Assembly (NCBI GenBank): GCA_903813345.2
Contig: CAIIXF020000009.1
Span: forward strand, 22,097,759 to 22,161,758
Reading direction: 5' to 3'
Source: Owenia fusiformis
Taxonomy: Eukaryota; Annelida; Polychaeta; Sabellida; Oweniidae
DNA length: 64,000 nucleotides
In this document: piece by piece, positions 12,043 to 64,000 of the stretch
How the letters are laid out: each line of letters begins with the position of its first letter
Numbering within the stretch: the stretch's first letter is position 1
Notes under the pieces: model-generated
What the model saw: only the letters and a program-made list of their open reading frames with translations
Database searches by the model: none
Told to the model about the DNA's origin: nothing
Program-made: the position numbers and the translations under genes

Positions 12043-12064
12043 TGACGTCACCAGGCCTATATAA
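12043..12064 (+). promoter_or_regulatory. LTR promoter: CRE-like site and TATA box
   Basis: A perfect TGACGTCA (12043-12050, a CREB/ATF-type site) is followed eight bases later by TATATAA (12058-12064). Initiation would be expected about 30 bases downstream, near 12090. That would place the whole 91-bp array inside the transcript leader. The site is present unchanged in the other LTR (18552-18573). Confidence 0.65.
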
Positions 12065-12190
12065 GTATTTCGCCGATGTAAACTCGGCAGATTACAGCTA
12101 GCTTTCGTTCGGGACAGAGCTCCGTTCAATTTCATATTTTTATGTGAAGTTGGACTTAGTCGTTTTTCAAGGAAATATTTTTGGACTTTG

Positions 12191-12480
12191 ACAACTTTCA
12201 GTAGAAAGTTGTTGGGACTTTGAATATTTCTCGAGGCAGATAGGAGATACATAGCTGCACTTCAGTTCAGTGGATGATAACTTGGACATCTACTTGTGAT
12301 GAAGGATACCTGAGAGGGAAGACTGCTACACCGTGATTCTGTAGATGATAACTTGGCCATCTATCCGTGTATTTGTGTAGAGGATACCTCAAGAGGGAAT
12401 ATTCAGTACCGTGTTTGGAGGCAGCATCAAGCCTATATTTCTGAGCTCTGTCAGTTCAATTTCATGAACACATGAAATTG
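12191..12480 (+). other. Hairpins in the predicted LTR RNA leader
   Basis: There are two perfect hairpins: 12191-12212 (9-bp stem ACAACTTTC, loop AGTA) and 12457-12480 (10-bp stem CAATTTCATG, loop AACA). A third, imperfect one lies near 12125-12150. Each is followed closely by GGACTT. They could be packaging or dimerisation signals, but that is inference. Confidence 0.5.
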
Positions 12481-12799
12481 GACTTTGCGTATTTTTGAGA
12501 TAGAAATTATTGAACTTAGTCAATATTTGGAGAAACATTATTTTGGACTTTGTTTTTTTTTGGAGGATAAATATTGAACTTAGAATATTTCAATATCAGT
12601 ATAACTCAACATTAACTGAACTTAGTTATTTTCAAGGGCAAATATTTTGATTTGTAATATTTTTGCCTATGCTGTTGTTCGCATGCTATATTTGTAGGTA
12701 GACTGATTACTTAATTGTGAAGGAAGTAGGCTACTTAGCAGTTGATGCCATGTATTAGACGTTTTTGGACTTAGTAGTTGGAAGATTGTGATAGTTTAA

Positions 12800-14645
12800 C
12801 TACAACACATTGAGGAGGATCCAGGAGATAGTCGTTTCCAGACTTTATAATTTGACTTAGATTATTTCACATAATCAAAGTTGAATTATACTACAACACA
12901 GTGAGGAGGATCCAGGAGATAGCCATTTACAGAGCCGATAGTTTGACTTAGATTATTTCGCATAATCAAAGTTGAATTATCCTACAACACAGTGAGGAGG
13001 ATCCAGGAGATAGTCGTTTCCAGACTTGATAATTTGACTTAGATTATTTCACATAATCAAAGTTGAATTATACTATAACACAGTGAGGAGGATCCAAGAG
13101 ATAGCCATTTACAGAGCCGATAGTTTGACTTAGATTTTTTTGCATAATCAAAGTTGAATTATCCTACAACACAGTGAGGAGGATCCAGGAGATAGTCGTT
13201 TCCAGACTTGATAATTTGACTTAGATTATTTTACATAGTCAAAGTCGAATTATACTACAACACATTGAGGAGGATCCAGGAGATAGCCGTTTACTGAGCA
13301 ATAGTTTGACTTAGATTATTTCACATAATCAAAGTTGAATTATACTACAACACATAGAGGAGGATCCAGGAGATAGTCGTTTCCAGACTTGATAATTTGA
13401 CTTAGATTATTTTACATAGTCAAAGTCGAATTATACTACAACACATTGAGGAGGATCCAGGAGATAGTCGTTTCCAGACTTTATAATTTGACTTAGATTA
13501 TTTCACATAATCAAAGTTGAATTATACTACAACACATTGAGGAGGATCCAGGAGATAGTCGTTTCCAGACTTGATAATTTGACTTAGATTATTTCACATA
13601 ATCAAAGTTGAATTATACTACAACACATTGAGGAGGATCCAGGAGATAGTCGTTTCCAGACTCTATAATTTGACTTAGATTATTTCACATAATCAAAGTT
13701 GAATTATACTACAACACATTGAGGAGGATCCAGGAGATAGTCGTTTCCAGACTTGATAATTTGACTTAGATTATTTTACATAATCAAAGTTGAATTATAC
13801 TACAACACATTGAGGAGGATCCAGGAGATAGTCGTTTCCAGACTTGATAATTTGACTTAGATTATTTCACATAATCAAAGTTGAATTATACTACAACACA
13901 TTGAGGAGGATCCAGGAGATAGTCGTTTCCAGACTTGATAATTTGACTTAGATTATTTTACAGAGTCAAAGTCGAATTATACTACAACACATTGAGGAGG
14001 ATCCAGGAGATAGCCATTTACAGAGCCGATAGTTTGACTTGGATTATTTTGCATAATCAAAGTTGAATTATTTTACAAACAGTGAGGAGGATCCAAGAGA
14101 TAGCCATTTACAGAGCCGATAGTTTGACTTAGATTATTTCGCATAATCAAAGTTGAATTATACTACAACAGTGAGGAGGATCCAGGAGATAGCCATTTAC
14201 AGAGCCGATAGTTTGACTTAGATTATTTTGCATAATCAAAGTTGAATTATACTACAACACATTGAGGAGGATCCAGGAGATAGCCATTTACAGAGTCGAT
14301 AGTTTGACTTAGATTATTTCACATAATCAAAGTTGAATTATACTACAACACAGAGAAGAGGATCCAGGAGATAGCCGTTTACAGAGAGATAGTTTGACTT
14401 AGATTATTTCACATAATCAAAGTTGAATTATACTACAACACATAGAGGAGGATCCAGGAGATAGCCGTTTACGGAGCAATAGTTTGACTTAGATTATTTT
14501 ACATCATCGAAGTTGAATTATACTACAGCACATTGAAGAGGATCCAGGAGATAGACATTTGCAGAGCCGATAGTTGACTTAGGTGATTTCATTTCAAACT
14601 TGAATCATACTACACTACATTGAAGAGGATCCAGGAGATTACTAT
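12800..14645 (+). repeat. 91-bp tandem array in the 5' LTR
   Basis: About 21 units are present. Each carries GAGGAGGATCCAGGAGATAG (a BamHI-type site), a variable middle (CGTTTCCAGACTTGATAA or CATTTACAGAGCCGATAG), and TTGACTTAGATTATTT facing ATAATCAAAGTTGAA, which can fold on itself. Two main unit types are interspersed. The last units are more diverged. Confidence 0.95.
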
Positions 14646-15074
14646 TTCAGGTTCAAGTTACAAGTACAATCCAAGACTTACAAGTATTACAACATATATG
14701 GACTTAATATTGGAGATACAGCAGTGTATATAGTGATCATCAAATTAGTTTAAATGGACTCTGGATATTGTTTTATTAGTGATAAACATTAGGTTATATG
14801 GACTTTTGAGATGTGAGTTTTGAGAGAAATAATAACACCGTAATATTCTTACATTACATTTGAAATTGCATGTACATCTTATTTGGGCTTATAAACGCCA
14901 CAATATATTGTTTTATATTATATATATAAAATTGTATATTTTGTTTAATTCTTTAGGGACAAAGCACATTTAACGTGTGCCGTGCAATCCACAAGTAAAC
15001 ACCGTTTACTAAACAGTGGTCTTTTTATTAGCCACACTACCACATATCCACAAAAAAGGCCAAACTGTTACACT

Positions 15075-15091
15075 GGTGGCAGTGGTGGGAT
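15075..15091 (+). other. Primer-binding-like site
   Basis: TGGTGGCAGTGGTGGGA begins two bases after the 5' LTR. It has the TGG start expected for pairing with a tRNA 3' CCA end. The tRNA identity is not determined. Confidence 0.6.
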
Positions 15092-15139
15092 TGATTGTTC
15101 CAGTAGATTTAAACCAGAGGTACATTATACAGTTTCAAG

Positions 15140-17866: not shown

Positions 17867-18112
17867 CTAACTTGTTTGTTAGAGACTTGTGGTGTTGCGT
17901 CATCACTTAGTGAAAGTTGTAGTTACTTTTGTGAATACTGTAAATAGTAGTTAGCTTTAGATGTAGATATTTTTGTGTAGGATTGTAGTAGCAACTAGTT
18001 GAACACCATTGTACAGTCGTATTTTGTTAAGGTAGCTAAGTTAGCAAAATTTTGTTATTTTTTTTTGTACTTTAAGCTTGGTGTAAACACCAAAATCATT
18101 GGATTGGAGGAG
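17867..18112 (+). other. Internal 3' non-coding region with purine tract
   Basis: This is the place where pol would lie in an autonomous element. It contains only stop-rich AT sequence and a purine-rich GGATTGGAGGAG directly before the 3' LTR, the likely plus-strand primer. Confidence 0.6.
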
Positions 18113-21100
18113 TGTAACAAAATTTTGAATTTTTGATTTTTGATTTGGTGCTGTAAACTCGTTTTTATACATTTATTACACTTGATTTGTGGTTTACATG
18201 TGAGATCATTAGGATGGTAATGTGTAGCAATGTTTGCAGCACTTAGGTTGTACTTACAGAGGTGAAATAGTTCGCATGTTTTATTTATTTGATCACGATT
18301 TTGTTTATGTTGATCGGGCAGTCTTATCTGGCAGTCTAATTTGTAGTTGATCGGTAGTCTAACATGGTAGCTTTATTATTTTACTTCCTGCTTTTGATTC
18401 TATCAAACCGAAGTAAAACTAGAGTAAGTAGCGATCAATTACTGTTATATTTCTTGAGTCAATATTAAAATCTTGTTGTATGCGTTATATTAAAGCTGGA
18501 TATGGCGTCAATAACTTGTTATTCAACTTTGAAATCTTGTTCGAAAAGTGATGACGTCACCAGGCCTATATAAGTATTTCGCCGATGTAAACTCGGCAGA
18601 TTACAGCTAGCTTTCGTTCGGGACAGAGCTCCGTTCAATTTCATATTTTTATGTGAAGTTGGACTTAGTCGTTTTTCAAGGAAATATTTTTGGACTTTGA
18701 CAACTTTCAGTAGAAAGTTGTTGGGACTTTGAATATTTCTCGAGGCAGATAGGAGATACATAGCTGCACTTCAGTTCAGTGGATGATAACTTGGACATCT
18801 ACTTGTGATGAAGGATACCTGAGAGGGAAGACTGCTACACCGTGATTCTGTAGATGATAACTTGGCCATCTATCCGTGTATTTGTGTAGAGGATACCTCA
18901 AGAGGGAATATTCAGTACCGTGTTTGGAGGCAGCATCAAGCCTATATTTCTGAGCTCTGTCAGTTCAATTTCATGAACACATGAAATTGGACTTTGCGTA
19001 TTTTTGAGATAGAAATTATTGAACTTAGTCAATATTTGGAGAAACATTATTTTGGACTTTGTTTTTTTTTGGAGGATAAATATTGAACTTAGAATATTTC
19101 AATATCAGTATAACTCAACATTAACTGAACTTAGTTATTTTCAAGGGCAAATATTTTGATTTGTAATATTTTTGCCTATGCTGTTGTTCGCATGCTATAT
19201 TTGTAGGTAGACTGATTACTTAATTGTGAAGGAAGTAGGCTACTTAGCAGTTGATGCCATGTATTAGACGTTTTTGGACTTAGTAGTTGGAAGATTGTGA
19301 TAGTTTAACTACAACACATTGAGGAGGATCCAGGAGATAGTCGTTTCCAGACTTTATAATTTGACTTAGATTATTTCACATAATCAAAGTTGAATTATAC
19401 TACAACACATTGAGGAGGATCCAGGAGATAGCCATTTACAGAGCTGATAGTTTGACTTAGATTATTTCGCATAATCAAAGTTGAATTATCCTACAACACA
19501 GTGAGGAGGATCCAGGAGATAGCCATTTACAGAGCCGATAGTTTGACTTAGATTATTTCGCATAATCAAAGTTGAATTATCCTACAACACAGTGAGGAGG
19601 ATCCAGGAGATAGTCGTTTCCAGACTTGATAATTTGACTTAGATTATTTCACATAATCAAAGTTGAATTATACTATAACACAGTGAGGAGGATCCAAGAG
19701 ATAGCCATTTACAGAGCCGATAGTTTGACTTAGATTATTTTGCATAATCAAAGTTGAATTATCCTACAACACAGTGAGGAGGATCCAGGAGATAGTCGTT
19801 TCCAGACTTGATAATTTGACTTAGATTATTTTACATAGTCAAAGTCGAATTATACTACAACACATTGAGGAGGATCCAGGAGATAGCCGTTTACTGAGCA
19901 ATAGTTTGACTTAGATTATTTCACATAATCAAAGTTGAATTATACTACAACACATAGAGGAGGATCCAGGAGATAGTCGTTTCCAGACTTGATAATCTGA
20001 CTTAGATTATTTTACATAGTCAAAGTCGAATTATACTACAACACATTGAGGAGGATCCAGGAGATAGCCGTTTACAGAGCAATAGTTTGACTTAGATTAT
20101 TTCACATAATCAAAGTTGAATTATACTACAACACATTGAGGAGGATCCAGGAGATAGTCGTTTCCAGACTTTATAATTTGACTTAGATTATTTCACATAA
20201 TCAAAGTTGAATTATAGTACAACACATTGAGGAGGATCCAGGAGATAGTCGTTTCCAGACTTGATAATTTGACTTAGATTATTTCACATAATCAAAGTTG
20301 AATTATACTACAACACATTGAGGAGGATCCAGGAGATAGTCGTTTCCAGACTTTATAATTTGACTTAGATTATTTCACATAATCAAAGTTGAATTATACT
20401 ACAACACATTGAGGAGGATCCAGGAGATAGTCGTTTCCAGACTTGATAATTTGACTTAGATTATTTCACATAATCAAAGTTGAATTATACTACAACACAT
20501 TGAGGAGGATCCAGGAGATAGTCGTTTCCAGACTTGATAATTTGACTTAGATTATTTCACATAATCAAAGTTGAATTATACTACAACACATTGAGGAGGA
20601 TCCAGGAGATAGTCGTTTCCAGACTTGATAATTTGACTTAGATTATTTTACAGAGTCAAAGTCGAATTATACTACAACACATTGAGGAGGATCCAGGAGA
20701 TAGCCATTTACAGAGCCGATAGTTTGACTTGGATTATTTTGCATAATCAAAGTTGAATTATTTTACAAACAGTGAGGAGGATCCAAGAGATAGCCATTTA
20801 CAGAGCCGATAGTTTGACTTAGATTATTTCGCATAATCAAAGTTGAATTATACTACAACAGTGAGGAGGATCCAGGAGATAGCCATTTACAGAGCCGATA
20901 GTTTGACTTAGATTATTTTGCATAATCAAAGTTGAATTATACTACAACACATTGAGGAGGATCCAGGAGATAGCCATTTACAGAGTCGATAGTTTGACTT
21001 AGATTATTTCACATAATCAAAGTTGAATACTAATACAACACAGTGAAGAGGATCCAGGAGATAGCCGTTTACAGAGTAATAGTTTGACTTAGATTATTTC

Positions 21101-21852
21101 ACATAATCAAAGTTGAATTATACTACAACACAGAGAAGAGGATCCAGGAGATAGCCGTTTACAGAGCGATAGTTTGACTTAGATTATTTCACATAATCAA
21201 AGTTGAATTATACTACAACACATAGAGGAGGATCCAGGAGATAGCCGTTTACGGAGCAATAGTTTGACTTAGATTATTTTACATCATCGAAGTTGAATTA
21301 TACTACAGCACATTGAAGAGGATCCAGGAGATAGACATTTGCAGAGCCGATAGTTGACTTAGGTGATTTCATATCAAACTTGAATCATACTACACTACAT
21401 TGAAGAGGATCCAGGAGATTACTATTTCAGGTTCAAGTTACAAGTACAATCCAAGACTTACAAGTATTACAACATATATGGACTTAATATTGGAGATACA
21501 GCAGTGTATATAGTGATCATCAAATTAGTTTAAATGGACTCTGGATATTGTTTTATTAGTGATAAACATTAGGTTATATGGACTTTTGAGATGTGAGTTT
21601 TGAGAGAAATAATAACACCGTAATATTCTTACATTACATTTGAAATTGCATGTACATCTTATTTGGGCTTATAAACGCCACAATATATTGTTTTATATTA
21701 TATATATAAAATTGTATATTTTGTTTAATTCTTTAGGGACAAAGCACATTTAACGTGTGCCGTGCAATCCACAAGTAAACACCGTTTACTAAACAGTGGT
21801 CTTTTTATTAGCCACACTACCACATATCCACAAAAAAGGCCAAACTGTTACA
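18113..21852 (+). repeat. 3' LTR (3740 bp)
   Basis: It has the same ends and promoter block as the 5' LTR. It is 272 bases longer, which equals three 91-bp units. Substitutions elsewhere are few (for example near 18367 and 18486). Confidence 0.93.
19308..21425 (+). repeat. 91-bp tandem array in the 3' LTR
   Basis: About 24 units of the same repeat as in the 5' LTR. One diverged unit near 21030-21110 has no counterpart in the other LTR. Unit order is otherwise largely collinear. Confidence 0.95.
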
Positions 21853-21989
21853 CTATGATATATATGAAAAATAACTACGGACGTATTTTCCTGACGGACT
21901 TGGATTCCTGCTGGAATTTAGGTCCATGAAACCCTATATTGATCATGTAATTAGTCTGTAGATAAATATACAAAGAAAAACGTATTTGA

Positions 21990-33200: not shown

Positions 33201-33764
33201 TTACAATTTAGTTGCCTCATATTTCTCTTTATCAAGATCATCTGTACTTGCGGCAACTAAGCCCGGATTTGAAATCCCATTTTTTGTATTAGTTTTTTGA
33301 CAGGGGCTGGATACCTCTGCTGTATCATCTGATGATTTGTATATACTTCTGTCGTACAGAACTGCCTTGAAAATGTCCGCACTTTTAGGGAGAATTCCAT
33401 TAAGGAAGAGCATGTTTGTGAATAGAGACACGCATATAATCGTCACCAGGCTGCATAACATTGACACCGCCCTGAACGGCATCTCATATGGGTATGGTAT
33501 CACTTGTGGAAGCGACAATAATGGCTCGCCTCCTCCTAGTCTCAAGACAAGCCCGACGATATATCCACACACCGATCCGTAGGTATTTGATGGTGACCAA
33601 TGAACAACCAAGAGAAGTTGTGGAAACAAGATCACGAAAACAAGGTCAGAACAGAGAGAAAATAAATCATATACTGACTTCACTGTTATGCCCATCACTG
33701 TTGCCAAAGCACCAACAACAAATATACCAACCCTAAGAATCCAAAGGATTTCCTTCTGGGATGC
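33201..33764 (-). CDS. Gene B coding exon 7 (last)
   Basis: 187 residues plus stop: the last membrane segments ([38 protein letters not shown]) and a hydrophilic tail ending KYEATKL. The 5' half differs strongly from gene C and the 3' half hardly at all. Confidence 0.92.
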   Translation of the reverse strand, partial: ASQKEILWILRVGIFVVGALATVMGITVKSVYDLFSLCSDLVFVILFPQLLLVVHWSPSNTYGSVCGYIVGLVLRLGGGEPLLSLPQVIPYPYEMPFRAVSMLCSLVTIICVSLFTNMLFLNGILPKSADIFKAVLYDRSIYKSSDDTAEVSSPCQKTNTKNGISNPGLVAASTDDLDKEKYEATKL

Positions 33765-36700
33765 CTGAAAATGAAGACGCCAGTGTATGAACGAAGAGTA
33801 TATAAAAATGATGACAAACTGGTTTATCTCTTGAGATAAGATGCAGTCTATTTAGTGATGTCTGATGCACCATATTCAATTATACTATTTAGTATTTATT
33901 AAGTGACATATGATGCAACAATGCTTACCCTCCTCCTAAATATCATTTTGTAGACATTGTTGGCGAACATTGAGCTAGCAGAGAGAACGCTTGAATCCGC
34001 AGACGACATAACGGCTGCTGACACAGCACCCAAACCAACAAATGACACCCACGTGGGGCATAAGTATTGCAACACCAGGGGCAGGATCAGCTTGTTATCA
34101 TCTTCTGGGATACTTCCGTTGGTCAAGGACCAATTGCGACCATCGGTAAAGTAATCTGTTTTATTCCAGTCTAAAATGCGAGATTACATACTTTAAACTA
34201 TCAGAACCATGTACTTTTGTTCAGCTTAATTTTTGTGATACATGACTAAAGGAATTCGTATTTTCTAATTATGCACGGATGGATGGCCATAGTAGTCAAT
34301 CCGAGTTCATAAACATTTAGTTATGCATGATGGATCGTTCATTGTTGAGTAATAATGAACAGCACATATGTACTAGGCGATCTCGGTTTTGGAGAATTTA
34401 GCCATGATTGAATCTATCTCAAAGCACATCTGCAATTTTCACTCACACTGCTAATAAACCCATGATATCCCAAACTACGACATTCCCGGATGTGCATAAT
34501 GCACGGCCGTTCATTTTTGAAGAATTAAAGAACGGATATGCTGCACTCTGATTGGTTGAGAAACTCAATTAGAGTACGGTCATGTTTGAAGCGAATACAA
34601 ATAACCTGTAGAGTAGCCTACTGCTCCAATGAGTATTGCGGGGATCGTCATTATAAAACACCCGAAAGCTCCAACAAATGAAAGCATCTGTGCCCGGCCT
34701 GCCGATCTTGATGACAGAACCCTTTGGAAATATGCCTGAAAGCATTATATGAAGTCTCAATGCATCATAATTACAATATCAGTGAACGTTTAACCGTGAC
34801 CACGATCTCATTTACTGAAACTGTAAAGACTTACACTTTAGTAATATTCCTACCTGCCACGGTATCCCACCAAATATAAGCAATAGGGCGTAGTCTAGCC
34901 ATGTTCCAATGTCTTTCACCGCTATCGTTCCTACCCATCCTGCTGTGACTTCGCCTGGTAAAGCCGTTTGTGCAATAGGTGTCACTGCTTCGTGGGTCAT
35001 GGCAAATGGAACAGAAAGCCACTGAAAATCATTAAATCGACGTTTGATGTATTGAACTGGATCGGGTAGATTAATATGATTAAATTGGATTTATAATGAA
35101 TCAGTATTCACTCTGTATCTTCTTTTTCTTTGACTTAAAATGATCGTTTTTAATATTTTGTTTTTTTCTTCCAAGGTCAAAATAATTCGACTTGAACGCC
35201 TACTGGATATATAAAGCCATTTGTCTTTTTTTTTTATCTCAGCTTTTACGGAATACTTATTAAATTAAAAAATGAAACATTGTTCTCAGTTTGATTTTGT
35301 TACAAGTATGCACTAACCAGTCCGACAAATATACAAATGAGTTGTACAATATCTGTATACGCCACTGAATATAGTCCTCCAAGTAGTGTGTAGAAAACGG
35401 CTATACAAGCAGATACAATGATAGCTATCAGGTTATCAATGCCCATGACCACGGATAATGTTGCACCTAAAATATCACAAAGTCCATGGAAATGTATTAT
35501 TATTGATTGGATTTGGTAAATTGTTTATCACTTTAATGCCTGAGGTAATGTCATTTTCTGCATGCGACAGAGAGATGGATAAAAAATAATTGTAGCACTT
35601 TAGGGCAAAAATTCTATTTTGATGGAAATTTTTAAATTATATTCTTATTCCATTGACCAGTTCCCCTTTCTACTGTTCATTCTAACCCTGGGACAAATAA
35701 CATCATTCCTTGTTGCTCAGCTCTAAGGGTCCTTGTTTCTTAGCGCCCAGATCGATCATGTTAAAGTTTTTTTAGCCAAACTTAATGTCATGCATGTAAA
35801 TGCGATTAGAGGATGTCTGTCAATTTAACAAAGGTGTGATAGTTACCCAATGCTGATAGAATTGAAGCAGAGTAGAAAACCTCTGCCATTAGTGCAGGGA
35901 TGAAAAGAAATCCACCCATGACGTCACCATATTTCCTGGTAAATGGGTCAAGCATTGTGATATATCCTTGTTCCCTCATTGGTTTAGCGAAAAAGAAACC
36001 TCCAAGGGCGAGACTGATAGCATATCCAAATGGTGCTTGGGTCCATGCTAACCCGTTGAAGCATGTTGCTTCTGCTGTTCCATTGATATAACCCCCTCCT
36101 ACCCATGTAGCTGAAAATGACATCGTATGTTTCATAATGTTGTTGATTGTCGAAGAATGAGGTCCAAGAATAACTTATCATGTTAAAATTATGTTGTTAT
36201 TGCAATCTAGTATTTTCAGCGTAATTTGTATATTTTGAGAAGTCTACGCACTTTTTTCACCCGATTACTATTATTTACAGTTTTACATGTCCGAAAATCA
36301 GATGGAGGCGACCCAAACGAATTCATAAAACACGTTCTTATCGCTCGAATCAGATTTACTGACCACAGATGGAATATTTGACGATTCGGGACCTTCAACA
36401 AATATTTTGCGTTTTAGCATTAAACACTTACACTGACTTCATGACAATGTATCAATAGGGAGTTTAAGCTTGCAATGTTTTTTACAACCGTGAACGTGAA
36501 CGGAAAATTTTTAAGCGATGCATTTGTATGAGCGATCGGTAAATCCTTATTGGTTGGCGTTTCGATTATATGGAAGCTTAAACTCCCTAGTGTCGTCCCC
36601 AAAATGTGCAAACTAAAAACCGACTATTCTACTGTATAATCATATAATAGCAGAGGCTAAACGGCGCTACATGACCGAACCTTTAGAATTTAATATCGTC

Positions 36701-42700: not shown

Positions 42701-45700
42701 CTTGAAGTGTCGATTTTCATCGAATTAGACTACTTTATAGTTGACCTAATGCTTTGATATTTGAACTAAATCCGACTTATATGACATGGAAACTCTGGAG
42801 TATAATCATTTGTTCATATATCATGCGTGTGCGCCACAGTTCGACGTTATCTTTCATCGCTTAAGGGGCGGTAACTTGGATTTTGGTTTTACAGATGATA
42901 AGACAACTGATAATCGGTGATGCGGTTACGTTATGAGAGTTTATTATGGAGAGCTAAACATGTCCAGTTACCGCGTATTGAAATCTAACATGACCGTTAC
43001 CGCATCTTACATTTCCAATTTCCAAGATATCGTTGAACTGTGGCCTTTTCGCATGTTATATGAACAAATTATCATACTCCAGTGTTTCCATGTCATATAA
43101 GTAGGATTTAGATCAAATATCAAAGCATTACGTCAACTATAAAGTAGTTTAATTCGATGGAAACTGAAAATATCGAAATCGGCACTTCCCGTGCGCCATC
43201 TTTGATGCGAAGGTGACGGCCGTTACCTTCGCTTGATACTGACCAGTGAAACATTCATTGAATTAAAAATAGATTTACCACAAGATGCACTCAACTGGAT
43301 TCTATAAATGTATGTATTTGTTGTAGTTAAGAAAGTGTACAGTGTATTTGTTAATAAAACCGGATATGTTTATGTGGCCGTCTCCCTTTTCAGGGTCGGT
43401 AGTGAGCTGAGGCCAGGTGAAAAAGGGTCGGAGGTCCTATCAAATTATGGTCCTACTTTCCATTGATTTATATGGTGACCTAAATACAACTCTTTCCCTT
43501 ATTATCGTATCCACAATCAGGGCCAGTAAGAGCCTTTAAGAAAGGGGACCATAATCCCCAGGGGACCATTATTTCTTTTACACCGGGTATACAGTCATTA
43601 ATAAAAAATCAGTCTTATTCTTATTCAATGTAAGTAATATAAGTTAATAGTAATATTAATATACATGTATACACCACGCATTACCAACTCAGTACACTAG
43701 GGGACTTTTTAAAAAATTTTAACGTATTCCTGGGCCTCAAGTAGTGAGCTAAATATTCTGGATCAAATCGTCATTAGTGATACCCACAGTGCGCCGATTC
43801 ATAATAAATTCCAATATAATACTCAAAATATATGAGTAATGGTGAAGGCCAACGTAGTTTAGATGCATCTTATTAGATTGATCAAGTTCTAGCTTTGGAG
43901 TGTTTTTTATAATAATGCGTGCACGGTGATAAAGCATACATAATTTCAGATTAGTCAATTACGTCAATATTTCATTATCAAAAGCAAGAAAACATTTTGA
44001 CCCCCGCCGTTTGGGCATACGAGAAAATGGTATTGCGATGTGCATTATCTCCAAAACGGACACACAATTTCTTCATTTTTTATATTGTTATTGTCTTTTT
44101 TTGTGGACGCTGTTCGACGGAGGTCGGCGTCTGTAACAAAGTGAAGGTGTCATTTTGTTAGTGAGGAAATAGACTAGGAGTTCACATCTATATCTGTCCT
44201 TTGGTAACTGACCTTCCATTGACTTTCAGAAAATTCCTTGGGCCCTAGAGAGATTGCTTGCATTAATGATTATCTAGAGTTTATTCAAATTATTTGTCAA
44301 AGGAATGGTATCGATATGGTGTACTGAATTCAACAATGTTTTCCTCTTAAACCTATTATTGAAAACATAATGTAAAAACACGGACCTTTATGTAATTTTG
44401 ACTGATTGACAACAATTGAATGTGAAAATTATTGATACATATTTTCTATAAGTGATTTTGTTAACATTCTCTTTGTTTTTTTAGTGCGATTGTTTTTTGT
44501 TCCTTTTTATCAATTCTTGATAATGAAATAAAATATCTTTCTGAAGCTTGTTTGAACAAAATAGCATATATAACATTTTCTCAGACCGCTCAATATTGCA
44601 GTTATACAACGGAAATTTTGGTTGATTTTATAAAAAAACGTATTCAAAAATTAAAACAAAAAAAAACAAAAATAGATAAAAAAAATTAAGATAAAACCTT
44701 TTATTTCAATACTAAGATACTTTTTAAAATCAACCAAACTTTCTTTTGTACAATTACAATATCGAGAGACCTATACACGTAGTGTTTATGTCATTTTGTT
44801 CCAAGCAATGAGGTTTGGATAGATATTTCATTTCATTCCGAACATATGATACCAAGAACAAAAGACGTGTCTGATGTGTTTTCTAAAACAATATAGAGAA
44901 GAGTAAATATATTAATTTCAAATCATATTGTTACCATGCAAAAGATGACCATTAAATTGACAATGTGTAGAATTTTCAGAACTTTTTGATTAACCTTTTG
45001 AACGTGTGTTCAAAAAGTGCACCATATCGACACCCATCCTTTCGAGACATGTAATTCTCATACAAGTGTGGGAGCAAAAGTCCAAATAAGAGGTCCCGTT
45101 TCCTTTTTAGAGGCGAGCTAAGCGACATATGTTTTCATGAACTAAAATTGATACTTATCAAGAAAAATGATGTTGTCAATTCTGATTCCGCGACGGCGTT
45201 GCTATGGTAACCAAGTAGATATGCCACACCCACTTTTAGATGCTCTTTTCAGTGTTTGGCCTCTATTTCCGCCATTATTGCTCAGATTTTGATGAAATTT
45301 ACACAAAATGGAAGGTAATAGATAATGCAATCAGGAGATATTAAGTTGGCAATTCTGAATCCGTAACAGCGTTGCTTTGGTAACAAAGAAAATATCCCAC
45401 ACCCACTTTTAGGGGCTCTTTTCAGTGTTTGGTCCCTATCTTCGTCAATATTGCTCAGATTTAGGAAATTTGTACCAAATGGAAATAGGAATCAAACAAG
45501 TTATAAAATATGCAAATAAGGTGATTTGCATATTAATTATGACGTCATAACCGTTTGTTCTTGCATATTTTATTTTAATCATGATGTATAAATCTGGGAA
45601 GTCATTGTCTTTAAAATGGTCAGTAATGCTTTTAAGTAGTTAATTAATTATAGTTTATTTCGTTGAGTTGAGTTTATTAGTAAATTTCATGCATACATGT

Positions 45701-47889
45701 ATGGTCATAAAAAATTGAAAAATGTAATGAATATATCCAAATCAAGCTGTTGCTATGGTAACAGTATGTTGCAAAACTATCTGCTGTAAAGATAATTCTT
45801 TGGGAAATGTTACATTTTGACCAGTTGACTGGCATGTATTCCTTCTAAAATTTGATGGCAGAAAATATCTGAATAACGATAGAAAATTACCTAATTTGGA
45901 TTGTGTTATATTATGATGTCATAATGGCAATTATTGATCAGGGGCACAGCCAGCTTTCAATCAGGGGGTGGCGATCTCGGCATAAGCAACTCAAAAAATG
46001 TTAAATTTGTCTTGAATTTTACAAAAATTCCTTCAAAACTGAGCTGGAAGCTTCGAGTCAAAAGCATTTTACAGCTTCTTCTCTCCAATGGTTCTATTTT
46101 TATCTGGTGTGTATGAACTTTTCATCATATGGAAACTAAAGAATCAGACGACAATGCATGGGGAATGTAGATTGACAGACTGGCATACCTGTTATGGTAT
46201 GACTATCATAGCTGTTTTCGTGATTATTTTCTTGAAATAAGGTAGAATTGCTCAAGATGATTCCAAATTGGTACCTTGTCCTTTGACATTCACCATAAAA
46301 GTAGGTCAAAGCTGAAAACTATGATTGATTTTCATTCTAATTCTTTACACATATAAAGTATGATCAAGAAATATTATCGGCAATTCTGAATCTGTGAGGC
46401 CGTTGCTATGGTAACCAAGTAGATATGCCACGCCCATTTTTAGGGGCTCTTCTCAGTGTTTGGCCCCAATCACCAACATTAATATTATTATTGCTTAGAT
46501 TTTGATGAAATAATATGCCATCCCAACTGTTCAGGGCTTTTCCCAAATTTTGCTTCTATCTTTGTCACGATTACAGCTTGAGTGTATATGAAATGTTACG
46601 CGGTAAACAAAATACAAAAATATGTCATATTCCACAACGAATATGGCATATTCACCTGCGGTGTATGACAGATTCACCTGCGGTATATGGCATACACACT
46701 AACCAATGAGAACGTGATACGGAAGTACGCAATTGCCAATTGCATCGATTGAATGAGCAAGTAAAACGTTATTAATTATTATAATGATTTCAAAACCAAA
46801 AGCATATCTGAAATCAGGGGCTTCCATACTTCATACTTGTAAAGAAATGGAATCAATCATAGTTTTCAGCTTTGACCTCATTTTATGGTGAATGTCAAAG
46901 GACAAGGTTCCAATTTGGAATCATTTTGAGCAATTTTACCTTATTTCAAGAGATAATCACAAGAAGCAGCTATGATACCATAACAGGTACTGTACTCCTG
47001 GTATTTTACACCTGCGATTTAGTTTCGTGCTTGGTAAAATCGCGAAAATTAATCTTTGCGAAATTGTCAATTAAATCCCAGAGATTTGTGAAATTTATTA
47101 TTACATTTTGTGTTTTGTAAAATGTTTGTCAAGTGTTTTATTTTATTTTATCCATTACCTTCCATTTGGTGAGAATTTCATCTAAATCTGAGCAATAATT
47201 ACAGAGATAGGGGCCATACACTGAAAAGAGCCCCTAAAAGTGGGCGTGGCATATTTACTTGGTTACCATAGCAACGCCGTCGCGGATTCAGAATTTTTCT
47301 TGGTAAGTATCAGGTCCCATACTACCGGGCGTTTCGTTTGAACAAACATTTTGAAAGACTAGAAAACTAGAAAGTGTTTTTTGTGTTATATTGCCTGAAC
47401 AGACAAATAAAGTTCAAGTTGACAAAAATAAGTTAAATAGGTTTTAGAATAAACATTTCTTTCAATTGAGACCCCGTGGTACAAATATTATGTTTACGTA
47501 AAATAAAATGCAAAACAAGTGAACGAGCAACACATTTTGGATAAATTTCAAACAATATTTTCCCAGGTCATCTTTGTTTCCATTTTCTGTCATATTTTTT
47601 CTGAATATTCTGAAATCAATGTATCCAATTTGATGGGGCAGGGAATAATTGGTATTTATATGTATACAAATGGCTACTTCAAAAGACACATGATCTTATT
47701 GTAGTCTTGCCTACCTGTTATTGTAAAGATTCCCACGACCACCCCGATGTCCCTTTTAGCCACAATGACATCCTCGCTGTTAGCCTCTTTGCCAAACTGT
47801 TTGGCTTTGCGTCCCACTATTAGCCCGATCACCAGTATGATGAGATAGAAAATAATGATGGCGGCCACTCCCCACCAGTTGATCACCAT
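33201..47889 (-). CDS. SLC5A7-like high-affinity choline transporter, gene B (complete, 7 coding exons)
   Basis: Sodium-coupled plasma-membrane transporter of the SLC5 family. The closest recognisable member is CHT1 (SLC5A7), which takes up choline for acetylcholine synthesis. The exons are 47715-47889, 35847-36110, 35318-35466, 34854-35021, 34606-34735, 33929-34170 and 33201-33764. They join at GT-AG sites in consistent phase to 564 codons (563 residues plus stop), close to the usual length of about 580. Family signatures include [67 protein letters not shown] and FPQLL. Sequons at N298, N308 and N313 lie where CHT1 has a glycosylated loop. One oddity is YDLFSL near residues 408-413, where gene C and the family have YGLW. 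The substrate could differ from choline. Confidence 0.92.
33929..34170 (-). CDS. Gene B coding exon 6
   Basis: Encodes DWNKTDYF to MIFRRR. It has three N-glycosylation sequons, then the highly conserved [21 protein letters not shown] segment that contributes to sodium binding in SLC5 proteins. Donor GTAAGC. Confidence 0.93.
34606..34735 (-). CDS. Gene B coding exon 5
   Basis: 43 codons plus one base, from AYFQRVLSS to [10 protein letters not shown]. The 3' end CTACTCTACAG followed by the donor GTTATT is nearly the same as the sequence repeated in the minisatellite of gene C. Confidence 0.9.
34854..35021 (-). CDS. Gene B coding exon 4
   Basis: 56 codons in phase 0, from [13 protein letters not shown] to [10 protein letters not shown]. 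The variable middle is an extracellular loop in relatives. Donor GTAGGA, acceptor TTTTCAG. Confidence 0.9.
35318..35466 (-). CDS. Gene B coding exon 3
   Basis: Starts after ATTTTAG. It encodes about 50 residues ending [13 protein letters not shown], with the family's [11 protein letters not shown]. It ends in phase 0 before GTTAGT. Confidence 0.9.
35847..36110 (-). CDS. Gene B coding exon 2
   Basis: Follows TTTTCAG. It encodes the second and third membrane segments with [42 protein letters not shown] and [14 protein letters not shown]. It ends in phase 1 before GTAACT. Confidence 0.92.
38640..39075. repeat. Dispersed repeat, inverted relative of 30360-30800
   Basis: Shares diverged sequence such as ACACAAGAAAAGATAT, GTAGGTAGTTACCA and TTTTCAAAG-type words in opposite orientation with the region 3' of genes B and C. 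The family is unknown. Confidence 0.5.
39970..40433. mobile_element. MITE with ends CCCTTAGGAAAAATGTTATG
   Basis: Inverted ends of about 25 bases are flanked by TA (39968-39969 and 40434-40435), giving a 464-bp element. The interior is rich in TTACCCATAA and its reverse. A TA target fits a Tc1/mariner-type or pogo-type MITE. Confidence 0.8.
40895..41035. repeat. Partial copy of the 42696-43196 foldback
   Basis: Contains TAAAGTAGTTTAATTC and the hairpin GCGAAGGT...ACCTTCGC as at 43110-43235, in direct orientation. Confidence 0.55.
42326..42556. mobile_element. Small MITE with TGTCCGC...ACGGAGCAG ends
   Basis: Inverted ends share GTTTAATTTT, TTGTCCGC and CGGAGCAG. It is about 230 bases long and has no coding capacity. 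Confidence 0.65.
42696..43196. mobile_element. Foldback element with about 125-bp arms
   Basis: The left arm (42696-42820) and right arm (about 43065-43196) are inverted copies sharing ACTACTTTATAGTTGAC and CCATGTCATATAAG-like sequence. The right arm is followed by a hairpin GCGAAGGT...ACCTTCGC (43207-43232). Confidence 0.65.
45149..47312. mobile_element. Foldback element in intron 1 of gene B
   Basis: Paralogous copy of the element at 1881-4182, with the same ends. It is shorter by one internal deletion and a trimmed right arm. Confidence 0.7.
47715..47889 (-). CDS. Gene B coding exon 1
   Basis: Encodes residues 1-58 plus one base. It has the start MVINWWG, a first membrane segment and the RDIG motif, and ends ACAG then GTAGGC (phase 1). 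Intron 1 is about 11.6 kb. Confidence 0.9.
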
Positions 47890-50620
47890 CTTGAAAATTA
47901 TTTCTTCAGATTATATCGTTAAACACGGTCCTTGATGATACGCTAAAAATATGCAGAATCATAATTAATGATCGGGTAATTATGTTGTGATTAATTAGTC
48001 ACTTTGTGAATTATTTGAACTTTTAGTCCAACTTACATTCGAATACACAACTGCTGCCGTGAACAATTTCAGAAAAGGTAACGTTTATTTTGTTAATCCA
48101 GACTATAAAGAAAAATTCTATCAGTCATTCGTTGCCTCTTTTTCTTCCAACATGCAAACAACAATCAAATGTTTGTCAGTGACTCTCTTTGAACTCTTTT
48201 TGAGCGTCCCGATGTGAACCTAGTTATCGCACTGTGGCTAGTCGAACTATGTGGATGCAGTCATTTATATGTAATGTATCTTGGGTGCTAGCGTACATTA
48301 TAGGGAATGGGATCATGCAAAAATATGACAGCAAATCGAGGTAAGTGATCTCAGAGTTTCTACTTAACAATGTGACTTGAAATCGTGCATACATATTCAA
48401 TATACATAGTATGACAATGTGTGAAAGTTGCAGCTACCATATTCCTGTTATAGGGAAGATATTTGAAAAACATTTCGTAAACGTCAACATATATGTATAA
48501 AATGGATGCACCTATGTATCATTTGGATTCAGAACGGTAACAAATGGAAAATGCCATTACAGATGAAATAAAGGACCCACGGTCCTGTGCTCACACAATG
48601 TAGAACCTTCAGAGGAATGTATATCCTGATTTTCAAACAAAAGTATTGGTAAATATGAGATCAATAAAAGATGAGTCATTTGTTGTTGGTTCAGATATGA
48701 TTTGTTGTAGTCAAAGGAAAAACTATGAATTTGACCTAGATTTTGACCTTTTTTGACTTTTAGTGTCCAAATTTTGAAGGAAAGTAGATTTTGAGGACGG
48801 CTTCTATTGTAGATTCTTATTAAGTTGGCTGCATCAAAGCTGTATCTAGTGTTGTGTTGTTACAATTGATAATTTTCTCAAGCCCCATTGACTTAACATG
48901 GGATACCAAAATAGCGATTTTTGAGATTTCAAAATGCCATAACTTCCGAACCGGAAGTCGAATCAAAATCTGGTTTGCAGACTCGGATTCCTTGGACAAT
49001 TCTTCACATATTCCATAACTCATACATTGAACAATTGGGACAATTTATTTTCTTCTATGCATACTATAATGATACGATTGGTGTCTAAATATACATTTTG
49101 TGGGTGAAGAATCAATTTAGTGTGGGTTTGAGTCTTGAAAATGAGAAACTTCCTCTTTATATTAAAAATATGCCTTTTTCAAAATGGCTGCCAGAGATGT
49201 GACAAAGATGATAGCTTAACTTGTATGCATGCTACAATAGTAAGATTGATGTCCAAGTATACATTAATGGGTGGTAGAATCCATTTGATATAAGGTTTAT
49301 AGTCTTTATTTTCCCAACGAAGAAAGTTCAGTGGGAGTATAGTGAAGCCCTCCGTCCGTCAGTCTGTCAGTGCATCACCTGTCTTATGTATGATTTTGCA
49401 ATTATTTTCAGATTCCTTCAAAGTATGGCCATATGTACTCATAGTGCTACGGCCAAGGCGATTTGTGTCCAAAACACCTAGATTCAATTTGACTTTAGAT
49501 TCTTGTAGGGGACCCCAAGGCATGTAAAAAAAAGTTTGTGAACCCTTGCAAAGCAGGCTCAAACGTGCTGAGTCAGCAACTTTTATCATTTTTGAGTCGG
49601 AATTTGACCATATGCTTGAAACTATTTAATATCTCATTTCAGGATGTTGCAATTGTAATGAAACATTGTCAATATATCAATAAGGCATGTATGAAGAATT
49701 CCTGAAAGTTTGGGTCTTAACCAACAAAATTTGGTTGAGATATGGGATAATTTGTCCCTAAAAGTACATAATTTCTCTTCAAAATTTGTTAATCAGTCGA
49801 TAGATAATCAGTCGTTTAAAAAACAGTAAGGGCCTATGGTGTATAAAACCTGATTTAAAACTACACTGATGATGTTAGCAAATATTTCTTGAATAAGTTT
49901 CAATAAAAAGTACAAGTATCTATTTTTTCTGATTTTTCTCTTTATCTTCCCCTAAAAATTCAAGAAAGGGGGCGTGGCACATAACACTTCAGTTGTTGAA
50001 CTTGTTGCTAGGGTCAAATAGAAAATGTGTATCATTATAGCAAAAAGTGTTATTCTAAATAAATTTTAACACTATATGTGACATCATGATATGCAAAACA
50101 TATTCATTATCTACCATTTTATTTTTTTACAGCTTATCATTGCCATATCCCATTAAACCGTTTAGGGTATGTGTGGTCAGCAATAGGAAATACATCTACA
50201 GGGTGATCCAGAAGTAACGTCAAAGACATTGTAATTTCAAAAGTATTCATCAGATCTTCATGAAATTTGGTATACATGTACCCACAACATTTCTGAGTTA
50301 CCATCTCAAAGATTGGAATTCAATCATTTCATTGGTTGAAATTATGGTTGCTATAGTAACCCGATATCGCGTAACCCGGGGCAAATTGAAGAGAAACCAT
50401 AACGTTTTTGTGAATTTCTCTAATTTAAAAAGTCAGTAACATTTGAAAATGTTCATTGTTTGTTTTCTATGATTTTTATATTTGTTGCCATGGTAACAAA
50501 TATGTAATAGTTGTGATGTCACAATAGGCATTCATAAAAAGCTTTCAATTTCTTTGAATTGCTTCCATCATCCATGACAAATACTAACATGACCAAGGAC
50601 ACTAACCCACCCAATTCAAG

Positions 50621-51316
50621 ATGGCGCCAAGTCAGAGTAAAATAGAGCAAAGAACAAACATTAAGTTCTGTGTAAAGTTGGGGAAAGGTGTAAAAGAGAC
50701 TATAAGACAGATAAAGAAGGCATATGGTAAAGCTGCCATTGCTGAGAGAAACATTTACAGGTGGTTTAACAAGTATTCCAGTGGATATGATGAAGTGGTA
50801 GACAAGCAGCGAGGAGGCAGGCCAGTGTCGTCATTCGATGATCAAACCATCAAAGCAATTGAAGCTGATGTTATGGACAATAGGCAAATTTCTATCAGAG
50901 AATTGGCTGAAAAACACGATCTGAGCTATGGGACTGTGCAACGGATACTGACAAAGAACTGTCTGTTAAAGAAGGTGTCTGCTAAATGGGTGCCGCATGA
51001 CTTGACACAGGAGCAGAAAGACCGGCGTGTTAAGGCTTCAAGGGACTTTCTTGCAAAATATCGGAGAGATGGAGATGACTTTCTTAACAAGATCATTACG
51101 AGTGACGAATCATTGCTATCATTCTACATCCCAGAGACCACGCAACAAAGTTCATTGTGGAAACATGACAACTCCCCAACACCAACCAAGCCTAAAATAG
51201 TACCAGGAATTCCACAAAAGAAACAAATGGTTGTGACATTCTTTGACATTAGAGGAATGGTGTTAACCCATTTTGTTCCCATTGGCCAGAGAATTAATGC
51301 CGTTTACATTGCAAAG
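50621..51316 (+). CDS. Mariner transposase, exon 1
   Basis: Encodes 232 residues. The N-terminal paired-like helix-turn-helix region includes GRPVSSFDDQ and ISIRELAEKHDLSYGTVQRIL. The catalytic domain begins near residue 155, with the first Asp in ITSDES (mariners usually have TGDE or TSDE). The exon ends IAK followed by GTAAGA. Joining to exon 2 gives 354 residues, the usual mariner size. The protein would bind the inverted repeats and cut and paste the element at TA sites. Without splicing, the frame stops within seven codons and the protein loses two catalytic residues. Confidence 0.9.
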
Positions 51317-51487
51317 GTAAGATATCATTTGTTCTAATAATACATCATACTGTGAATTTTATTTTTAAATTAAAGTATTTAAATGTTGTTCACTGTCAAT
51401 ATAATTATAACTCCATGGCCATGATTCAAATCCAAATCCAATCAATGAAACAACTGGTTTAACAACCATTAAACATTTGTTTTTCAG
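51317..51487 (+). other. Intron in the mariner transposase gene
   Basis: 171 bases, GTAAGA to TTTTTCAG, phase 0 and AT-rich. Removal restores the expected mariner sequence across YIAK-VLKRDLQ. Introns are uncommon in mariners, so this is a distinguishing trait. Confidence 0.8.
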
Positions 51488-51856
51488 GTTCTGAAGCGTG
51501 ATCTTCAACGTTCCCTGAGGAAAAAGCGTCCCGGACATCTGCAGCAGTTTATCTTGCATTGGGACAATGCCCCTACGCACACTGCAATCCTGACCAGCAA
51601 CACAGTCCAAACACTTGGATTTCAACAACTTGAACATGCCCCTTATTCACCTGATCTTGCCCCCAGTGACTTTTATTTGTATGGGGAACTAAAAAGAAAC
51701 CTTAGTGGAAATAATTTTCAATCCTGTGAGGAATTGAAAAATGCCGTAGTACTAGCCCTACAAGGAATGAGTTCTAATGGATTTAATTCTGTGTTCAAGG
51801 AATGGGTATCCAGACATGAGAAATGTGTTGCAAATGGTGGCAATTATGTAGAATGA
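51488..51856 (+). CDS. Mariner transposase, exon 2
   Basis: 122 residues carrying the second and third catalytic Asp: HWDNAPTHTA and YSPDLAPSDFYLY. Exactly 34 residues lie between the two, the D,D34D signature of mariner. A polyadenylation-like AATAAA follows near 51902. All three catalytic positions are present and no stop interrupts the frame. Confidence 0.9.
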   Translation, partial: VLKRDLQRSLRKKRPGHLQQFILHWDNAPTHTAILTSNTVQTLGFQQLEHAPYSPDLAPSDFYLYGELKRNLSGNNFQSCEELKNAVVLALQGMSSNGFNSVFKEWVSRHEKCVANGGNYVE

Positions 51857-53252: not shown

Positions 53253-53335
53253 CAAAAATATGTCATATTCCACAATGAATATGGCATATTCACTTGCGGT
53301 GTATGACACATTCACCTGCGGTATATGGCATACAC
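53253..53335. repeat. ATATGGCATA / TGCGG motif repeats
   Basis: Nearly the same 80 bases as at 3476-3556 in intron 1 of gene A, here inside the transposon. Confidence 0.6.
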
Positions 53336-53550
53336 ATCAATCAATGAGAATGTGATATGGAAGTACGCAATTGTCAATTGCTTAGATTGAACGAGCAAGT
53401 TAAACATTATAAATTATTATAATGATTACTGAATCAACAGCACTGTGTATCAAATATATTAACTTAGCAGAAGTATCAGTCACCAATCTTGTGCAATAAA
53501 CTTACTCAATCAATCTTGGAATGATACATTAGTACTAGACGCACTAACTA

Positions 53551-54499: not shown

Positions 54500-54700
54500 C
54501 ACGTTTTCACCTGCGATATATGTCATATTCACAGGCGGTATATGGCATATTCCGCAAGTGAGTATGACTTATTCCGCAGGTAAGTATGGGGTATTCACTG
54601 AAATCAATGTATCGCATATTCACTGCGGAATATCGCATACTCACCTGCAGAATATGTCATACACCGCAGATGAGTATGGCATATTCACCTGTATCACAAA
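54500..54700. repeat. Extended ATATGGCATATTC / CCTGCGG repeat array
   Basis: About ten alternating units in both orientations, such as GGTATATGGCATATTC, TTCCGCAGGTAAGTATG and CATACTCACCTGCAG. The array is self-complementary over long stretches. Confidence 0.65.
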
Positions 54701-60499: not shown

Positions 60500-61063
60500 T
60501 TACAATTTAGTTAAGTCATATTTCTCTTTATCAAGATCATCTGTACTTGCGGCAACTAAGCCCGGATTTGAAATCCCATTTTTTGTATGAGTTTTTTGCC
60601 AGGGGGTGGATACCTCTTCTGTATCATCTGATGATTTGTATATACTTCTGTCGTACAGAACTGCCTTGAAAATATCCGCACTTTTAGGGAGAATTCCATT
60701 ATGGAAGAGCATGTTTGTGAATAGAGACACGCATATAATCGTCACCAGGCTGCATAACATTGACACCGCCCTGAACGGCATCTCATATGGGTATGGTATC
60801 ACTTGTGGAAGCGACAATAATGGCTCGCCTCCTCCTAGTCTCAAGACAAGCCCGACGATATATCCACACACCGATCCATATGTGTTCGACTTTGGCATAT
60901 GGACAACCAAGAGAAGTTGTGGAAACAAGATAACGAAGACAAAGTCCGAACAAAGATACCAGAGTCCATATATTGTATTTATTGTTATGCCCATCACAGT
61001 TGCTAGAGCACCAACGACAAATATAGCAATCCTAAGAACCCAGAGAATTTCATTTTGAGATGC
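60500..61063 (-). CDS. SLC5A7-like gene C, last coding exon (7)
   Basis: 187 residues plus stop, begun by the acceptor TTTTCAG. It has [18 protein letters not shown] and [11 protein letters not shown], and ends KYDLTKL. It is the same length as gene B's exon. The 3' 380 bases are almost identical to gene B, but the 5' 185 bases differ at many codons. The family-like YGLW is retained here. Confidence 0.9.
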   Translation of the reverse strand, partial: ASQNEILWVLRIAIFVVGALATVMGITINTIYGLWYLCSDFVFVILFPQLLLVVHMPKSNTYGSVCGYIVGLVLRLGGGEPLLSLPQVIPYPYEMPFRAVSMLCSLVTIICVSLFTNMLFHNGILPKSADIFKAVLYDRSIYKSSDDTEEVSTPWQKTHTKNGISNPGLVAASTDDLDKEKYDLTKL

Positions 61064-61186
61064 CTGAAAAGGAAAATGCAAACATGTTGAAATGGATAAA
61101 TGAAGACTAATACATGTCTGCACTATAATAAGATACATTTCCCCACTCTATCATAGCCCTATATTAAATACTAAAACCATTCTTAC

Positions 61187-61428
61187 CCTTCTCCTAAATA
61201 TCATTTTGTAGACATTATTGGCGAACATTGAGCTAGCAGAAAGAACGCTTGAATCCGCAGACGACATTACGGCTGCTGACACAGCACCCAAACCAACAAA
61301 CGACACCCAGGCGGGGCATAAGTATTGCATCACCAGGGGCAGGATCAGCTTGTTATCATCTTCTGGGATACTTCCGTTGGTCAAGGACCAATTGCGACCA
61401 TCGGTAAAGTAATCTGTTTTATTCCAGT
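61187..61428 (-). CDS. SLC5A7-like gene C, coding exon 6
   Basis: Encodes DWNKTDYF to MIFRRR with [16 protein letters not shown]. It differs from gene B at a few positions only, such as LVMQY and CPAWV. Donor GTAAGA, acceptor ATTTTAG. Exons 1-5 would lie to the right, mostly or wholly beyond the window. Confidence 0.9.
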
Positions 61429-61544: not shown

Positions 61545-64000
61545 ATCACCTGTAGTGATCAATCACGTTGACGCAATGATATCTTATATAACATGAATCA
61601 CCTGTAGAGTAGCTTATGACATAAAACGTTGACGCAATGATATCTTATATAACATGAATCACCTGTAGAGAAGCCTATGACATAAAACGCTGACGCAATG
61701 CTATCTTATATAACATGAATCACCTATGTAGAGAAGCCTATAACATAAAACGTTGACGCAATGCTATCTTATATAACATGAATCACCTGTAGAGAAGCCT
61801 ATGACATAAAACGTTGACGCAATGCTATCTTATATAACAAGAATCACCTGTAGAGAAGCCTATGACATAAAACGTTGACGCAATGCTATCTTATATAACA
61901 AGAATCACCTGTAGAGTAGCTTATGACATAAAACGTTGACGCAATGCTATCTTATATAACATGAATCACCTGTAGAGTAGCTTATGACATAAAACGTTGA
62001 CGCAATGCTATCTTATATAACATGAATCACCTGTAGAGAAGCCTATGACATAAAACGTTGACGCAATGCTATCTTATATAACAAGAATCACCTGTAGAGA
62101 AGCCTATGACATAAATCGTAGACGCAATGCTATCTTATATAACATGAATCACCTGTAGAGAAGCTTATGACATAAAACGTTGACGCAATGCTATCTTATA
62201 TAACATGAATCACCTGTAGAGAAGCCTATGACATATAACGTTGACGCAATGCTATCTTATATAACATGAATCACCTGTAGAGAAGCCTATGACATAAACG
62301 TTGGCGCAATGCTATCTTATAGAACATGAATCACCTGTAGAGAAGCCTATGACATAAAACGTTGACGCAATGCTATCTTATATAACATGAATCACCTGTA
62401 GAGAAGCCTATGACATAAAACGTTGACGCAATGCTATCTTATATAACAAGAATCACCTGTAGAGAAGCCTATGACATAAAACGTTGACGCAATGCTATCT
62501 TATATAACATGAATCACCTGTAGAGAAGCTTATGACATAAAACGTTGACGCAATGCTATCTTATATAACATGAATCAACTGTTGAGTAGGGTATGACATA
62601 AAACGTTGACGCAATGCTATCGTATATAATGAGAATCACCTGTTGAGTAGCCTATGACATAAAACGTTGACGCAATGCTATCTTATATAACATGAATCAC
62701 CTGTAGAGAAGCCTATGACATAAAACGTTGACACAATGCTATCTTATATAACAAGAATCACCTGTAGAGAAGCCTATGACATAAATCGTAGACGCAATGC
62801 TATCTTATATAACATGAATCACCTGTAGAGAAGCCTATGACATAAAACGTTGACGCAATGCTATCTTATATAACATGAAACACCTGTAGAGAAGCCTATG
62901 ACATAAAACGTTGACGCAATGCTATCTTATATAACAAGAATCACCTGTATAGAAGCCTATGACATAAAACGTTGACGCAATGCTATCTTATATAACATGA
63001 ATCACCTGTAGAGAAGCCTATGACATAAAACGTTGACGCAATGCTATCTTATATAACAAGAATCACCTGTAGACATGATAGAGAAGCTTATGACATAAAA
63101 CGTTGACGCAATGCTATCTTATATAACAAGAATCACCTGTAGAGTAGCTTATGACATAAAACGTTGACGCAATGCTATCTTATATAACAAGAATCACCTG
63201 TAGAGTAGCTTATGACATAAAACGTTGACGCAATGCTATCTTATATAACAAGAATCACCTGTAGAGAAGCCTATGACATAAAACGTTGACGCAATGCTAT
63301 CTTATATAACAAGAATCACCTGTAGAGAAGCTTATGACATAAAACGTTGACGCAATGCTATCTTATATAACAAGAATCACCTGTAGAGAAGCCTATGACA
63401 TAAAACGTTGACGCAATGCTATCTTATATAACAAGAATCACCTGTAGAGTAGCTTATGACATAAAACGTTGACGCAATGCTATCTTATATAACAAGAATC
63501 ACCTGTAGAGAAGCCTATTACATAAAACGTTGACGCAATGCTATCTTATATAACAAGAATCACCTGTAGAGAAGCTTATGACATAAAACGTTGACGCAAT
63601 GCTATCTTATACAACAAGAATCACCTGTAGAGAAGCCTATGACATAAAACGTTGACGCAATGCTATCTTATATAACAAGAATCACCTGTAGAGAAGCTTA
63701 TGACATAAAACGTTGACGCAATGCTATCTTATATAACATGAATCACCTGTAGAGAAGCCTATGACATAAAACGCTGACGCAATGCTATCTTATATAACAT
63801 GAATCACCTGTAGAGAAGCCTATGACATAAAACGTTGACGCAATGCTATCTTATATAACATGAATCACCTGTAGAGAAGCCAATGACATAAAACGTTGAC
63901 GCAATGCTATCTTATATAACAAGAATCACCTGTAGAGAAGCCTATGACATAAAACGTTGACGCAATGCTATCTTATATAACAAGAATCACCTGTAGAGAA
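61545..64000. repeat. 61-bp minisatellite in intron 5 of gene C
   Basis: About 40 units, highly uniform, continuing past the window end. Each unit carries GACGCAATGCTATC, TTATATAACA(T/A)GAATC and CACCTGTAGAG(A/T)AGC. On the minus strand the last part reads GCT(T/A)CTCTACAG followed by GTGATTC, which closely matches the 3' end of exon 5 plus donor in gene B. Unit variants (GCCTATG, GCTTATG, AGTAGC) are interspersed. Confidence 0.95.

Follow-up and report, generated by a model that had tools for sequence, protein, structure and literature searches.

Introduction

In intron 7 of the human F7 gene, 37-bp repeats form an intronic minisatellite that starts at the exon 7 donor. Lancelet genes harbor "mirages," minisatellite-like tandem duplications of exon-intron boundaries, many of whose units carry AG/GT (PMC3087553). 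According to that report, mirage units measure 10 to 72 bp in Adh3 and 150 to 160 bp in globin genes, regular splicing is apparently undisturbed, and the Adh3 array shows length instability that can even be somatic (PMC3087553). In lancelet PGBD5, repeats of 60 bp and 108 bp lie beside 5′ splice sites (PMC3902484). The notation of the human 31-bp CBS VNTR, c.1444_1467+7(16_21), denotes 24 exonic and 7 intronic bases in 16 to 21 copies (PMC2630376), and internal tandem repeats in human segmental duplications, with a mean of four 30-bp units, alter gene structure (PMC2812944). Intron gain through tandem duplication of AGGT-containing segments has also been described (Rogers model; potato RdRp) (PMC4974935).

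Here we describe an array of more than 40 copies of a 61-base unit in an intron of an SLC5A7-like gene. Its probable anatomy is that of the lancelet mirages in Adh3, BflGb6, BflGb9, troponin C, and PGBD5, whose units span or abut the exon-intron boundary and measure 10 to 160 bases, including the 60-bp unit of PGBD5 (PMC3087553, PMC3902484). In contrast to the copy number here, the numbers reported for lancelets include 6 and 3 copies for BflGb6 (PMC3087553) and, for PGBD5, 2 or 7 copies of the 60-bp repeat and 3 or 6 of the 108-bp repeat (PMC3902484). The host gene also differs from the lancelet mirage genes, and the presumed parent exon here lies beyond the window, by which we mean the whole 64,000-nucleotide stretch of DNA analyzed. 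By its notation, the unit of the CBS VNTR spans an exon end plus donor, as the unit here probably does; however, both gene and unit are different, no homology is implied, and in CBS length polymorphism has been measured (PMC2630376). The Rogers model likewise places tandem copies with splice signals within a gene, but it makes a new intron, whereas here an existing one is enlarged (PMC4974935). Human segmental duplications share minisatellite expansion in recent paralogs, in part at exon-intron borders, but their arrays are short (PMC2812944). An array of this kind is already known, and what distinguishes this one is its copy number, which exceeds the lancelet figures given above. Neither this locus nor its unit appeared among the matches listed from the literature on splice-junction repeats and choline transporters. 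The array offers a natural test of how the spliceosome chooses one donor among about 40 near-identical ones, and it bears on the proposal that introns grow, and new ones arise, through amplification of splice junctions. If the host is not a lancelet, it would also extend mirages beyond cephalochordates among invertebrates.

Host genes and the tandem array

The window consists of animal-like DNA and contains two paralogous SLC5A7-like (high-affinity choline transporter) genes, B and C, on the minus strand. The traced part of gene B extends from 33204 to about 36108. Its joined exons, used as a 502-residue query, matched human CHT1 (8j74) with an E value of 1.5e-163, and likeness to the SLC5A7 family follows from these exons together with the identity of gene C to gene B. 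Three single exons matched the SSF family (PF00474) at 21.9, 17.6, and 17.6 bits, all under the cutoff of 22.8. Exon 5 of gene B (34606..34735) ends in GTAGGCTACTCTACAG and encodes the residues GYST, followed by D across the intron. The Asp codon is completed by exon 6 (33929..34170), giving GYST-D-WN versus GAST-D-WN in the human protein. The intervening intron 5 (34171..34605; 435 bases) is free of arrays.

Two exons of gene C were recognized: exon 6 (61187..61428), which follows the acceptor TTTTAG|ACTGG (the bar marks the exon-intron border here and below), and exon 7, the last coding exon (60503..61063), which is open and paralogous to exon 7 of gene B. No further gene C exons were found in the window, and upstream exons would fall to the right of position 64000. 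The two genes are 97.6% identical in exon 6 (83-residue query, the first three residues of which overlap the intron) and 88.2% identical in exon 7, and neither gene has a stop in translated exon 6 (80 codons) or exon 7 (187 codons). Between C and B, pN and pS were 0.011 and 0.112 in exon 6 and 0.129 and 0.408 over the first 68 exon 7 codons, a pattern as under constraint for these parts of gene C. The last 119 codons of exon 7 differ at 8 nonsynonymous sites and 1 synonymous site; these differences appear too few and too recent to interpret and give no sign of constraint. On these substitution patterns, the evidence as to whether gene C is alive appears mixed. Synonymous difference between the genes is a mosaic: exon 6 shows 0.11, and exon 7 has 0.41 over its first 68 codons and 0.012 over the other 119. 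Across the compared segments (33204-34170 and 60503-61428), this mosaic is suggestive of gene conversion, or else of a recent duplication whose border lies inside exon 7.

The array lies upstream of gene C exon 6, separated from it by 116 bases, in the counterpart of gene B intron 5, and it has the orientation of the gene (minus strand). The initial annotation had placed a 61-bp array in this intron, and its position was borne out. Tandem Repeats Finder reported a period of 61 with 39.8 copies and 95% matches at 61565-64000. When this interval was split at an anchor, 40 units resulted: 39 complete ones plus one truncated to 40 bases by the window edge, which the array reaches. On the side facing exon 6, a degenerate partial copy (61545..61571), counted on top for a total of 41, has an internal deletion and retains CACTACAG|GTGATT; such terminal copies are usual for array edges. 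In gene orientation the sequence of the unit is TCAACGTTTTATGTCATAGGCTTCTCTACAG|GTGATTCATGTTATATAAGATAGCATTGCG, and it includes TGACGCAAT, which may resemble a C/EBP-ATF site. Unit length is exactly 61 bases in 36 of the 39 complete units, with 60, 63, and 70 bases in the other three. The 36 units of 61 bases comprise 20 distinct sequences and differ pairwise by 2.6 bases on average (maximum, 9). Similarity between units showed no clear peak at lags of 1 to 19, as a higher-order repeat would produce. Two units together did not fold better than expected (z = −0.69; 53 of 200 shuffles folded equally well), and an RNA structure was rejected.

The AG|GT of the mirages is present in 40 of the 41 copies, so that the row of about 40 donor-like sites noted earlier does exist. 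The sites comprise 38 CAG|GTGATT, 1 TAG|GTGATT, and 1 CAG|GTGTTT; the remaining copy (62549-62609) has lost its donor (CAG|TT) and has several further consensus bases changed. Homogenization within the array suffices to account for this retention, and selection is not needed.

Relationship of the unit to the exon 5 splice junction

The initial annotation further held that the unit matches the end of gene B exon 5 across the exon-intron border, at the expected position and in the expected orientation. This was confirmed. Exon 5 ends as TAGGCTACTCTACAG|GTTATT (34620..34600), and the unit agrees with 19 of these 21 bases, 15 exonic and 6 intronic (34600..34620, minus strand), without gaps, in the same orientation, and in the matching intron. 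The boundary that the unit is seen to span is that of the matching exon in paralog B; mirage units span a boundary of the host gene itself. Read in the frame of exon 5, the unit gives V-I-G-F-S-T, compared with G-A-V-G-Y-S-T in gene B and G-A-I-G-A-S-T in human CHT1. In the copy at 62610, TAGGC and TAC are both present, as they are in gene B, but another change lies closer to its donor.

Among bases 1-61500 on both strands, the gene B junction was the top ungapped match of the unit, scoring 15 versus 11 for the next. By BLAST it reached 28.8 bits (E value, 0.014), and the next match reached 21.4 bits. When the unit was shuffled with dinucleotides preserved, none of 20,000 shuffles attained the junction score at the gene B junction, and 2 of 20,000 attained the score of the exonic part without the splice signal. 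On both strands of the remaining 61.5 kb, 6 of 300 shuffled units had an equally good match somewhere. A comparable match somewhere in the window is not very rare, but its occurrence at the corresponding junction in the correct orientation is. With loose gapped scoring, an 80-base piece holding the gene B junction scored 20.0, compared with a 99th percentile of 16.5 and a maximum of 20.0 for 3,000 random 80-base pieces. Because the sequence score alone is insufficient to establish origin, the argument is carried by the coincidence of intron, strand, and border.

The limits of the match are informative as well. It breaks off abruptly just upstream of TAGGC, within coding sequence shared with the human gene (IPAILIGA), as it would at a duplication breakpoint, and it fades inside the intron. 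Since the unit departs there from conserved gene B coding sequence, the parent segment can have no more than about 15 exonic bases. The introns of B and C align poorly except in the stretch adjoining exon 6. About 15 exonic bases plus 46 bases from a poorly alignable intron are what a tandem duplication with a breakpoint 15 bases inside the exon predicts.

We therefore consider it likely that the array is a mirage-type minisatellite derived from gene C's own exon 5/intron 5 junction and that the true donor is mostly used. Tandem duplication of a 61-base segment, comprising the last 15 or so bases of gene C exon 5 and 46 bases from the start of intron 5, would have been followed by slippage or unequal exchange that raised the copy number inside intron 5 above 40. 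The amplification proposed earlier is well supported by paralog B, which here stands proxy for the parent; that gene C has an exon 5 adjoining the array, beyond the window, is our inference. Under this origin, exon 5 of gene C would end as TAGGCT(T/A)CTCTACAG|GTGATT, directly adjoining the first unit. Weighing against this reading, the match takes in just 21 of the 61 bases in a unit, it was made to a paralog, and its CAG|GT part is generic donor consensus.

An ordinary intronic minisatellite or a dispersed satellite, with a unit resembling the exon 5 junction by chance and unrelated to splicing, is an unlikely explanation in our estimation. In its favor, only a third of the unit is matched, and 6 of 300 shuffled units, as noted above, do equally well somewhere else in the window. 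Dispersed 22-bp repeats with TCACCTG plus TATGACA-like words occur at four places. Under loose gapped scoring, three of these gave 12.0 with the unit, and the remaining one, a 201-base target at 54500-54700, gave 20.0, equal to the gene B junction piece. Against chance stand the agreement of position, strand, and border with the matching intron, the failure of all 20,000 shuffles at the junction, and the ungapped lead of the junction over the next site. Within the window, the extent over which the satellite test proposed in the initial annotation was applied, neither BLAST nor an ungapped scan (bases 1-61500, both strands) turned up the unit outside the array, which also counts against this rival. 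An TAGGCTTCTCTACAG|GTGATT end of gene C exon 5, or a similar one, beside the first unit would be expected from the junction origin and contrary to chance likeness. Derivation of the array from the dispersed 22-bp repeats was rejected, their similarity being of the loose gapped kind only. A degenerate 29-base pattern of the unit had 0 matches in viral_contigs and 0 in genome_contigs; because the former covers viral sequences and the latter bacterial and archaeal ones, these results carry little weight.

Possible consequences for splicing

If the array arose from the junction of gene C, the first, true donor of exon 5 would most likely be used and the array removed with the intron. The array copies would be by-products, although occasional use of downstream donors might yield some stop-containing transcripts. 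By analogy with the lancelet genes, splicing of gene C would be mostly normal and the effect of the array on the gene is probably small.

The initial annotation had raised altered splice site choice or silencing, which persists here as a possibility. In its strong form, in which competition between the decoys and the true donor of exon 5 greatly lowers or silences functional gene C output, we regard it as quite improbable; being an effect, it overlaps the readings of origin given above. The unit donor CAG|GTGATT scored 8.7 (99.4th percentile among the 6653 GT sites that lie outside the array) and the exon 5 donor of gene B 4.0, in a crude splice-site frequency matrix that is not a validated predictor; the comparison moreover uses the donor of B, that of C lying beyond the window. 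In the same crude matrix, the unit acceptor CTTCTCTACAG|G scored 7.5 (97.9th percentile among the 6277 AG sites that lie outside the array). Should the intron begin as the unit does, splicing from a downstream donor would add G-D-S-C-Y-I-R and then a stop, whatever the number of units retained. The end of exon 7, with its 8 nonsynonymous differences and 1 synonymous difference, gives no sign of purifying selection. In contrast, exon 6 and the start of exon 7 have low pN relative to pS and neither exon contains a stop. Arrays in lancelet Adh3 and globin genes (PMC3087553), and likewise in Adh and troponin C (PMC3902484), are reported not to interfere with regular splicing, so that silencing of gene C is the less likely outcome. 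The initial annotation had asked whether products differ by multiples of 61 bases; the predicted stop after seven residues would mean that proteins in such steps are not expected, but RNA products of this kind can occur.

The usual unit contains a composite acceptor-donor site, CTTCTCTACAG|GTGATT. The array might conceivably serve as a ladder of about 40 recursive-splicing points (zero-length exons), through which the intron would be removed in multiples of 61 bases and the mRNA left unchanged. We consider such a role highly improbable; if true, it would explain the tolerance of so many strong decoys. In the literature searched, no paper combined recursive splicing and a ratchet with tandem repeats in an intron.

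Additional features of the window

G+C content ranges from 0.30 to 0.42 per 2 kb across the window, below the level typical of Branchiostoma. No Rfam family reached its gathering threshold there, and ARAGORN, run with the bacterial code, found no tRNA. Direct repeats of about 3.5 kb (11604-15074) and 3.7 kb (18113-21854) each contain a 91-bp tandem array, with 20.3 and 23.3 copies, respectively. Between them, a 917-codon open frame (15113-17866) shows weak gag-protease matches (PF13650 and PF13975, both below cutoff). About 250 bases separate this frame from the second repeat, leaving no room for a polymerase gene, and the region as a whole (11604-21854) looks like a nonautonomous LTR element with minisatellites in its LTRs. 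A recent segmental duplication of nearly 6 kb relates 1-5940 to 43265-49031, with 98.5 to 99.1% identity in three pieces. The 22-bp repeats (TCACCTGCGGTATATGACA-like), loosely similar to part of the 61-bp unit, form short arrays at 3480-3560, 46620-46700, 53260-53340, and 54500-54700. A mariner (Mos1-like) transposase remnant occupies two frames at 50606-51856; the first matches HTH_48 and Transposase_1, and the second (51473-51856) was assigned by eye.
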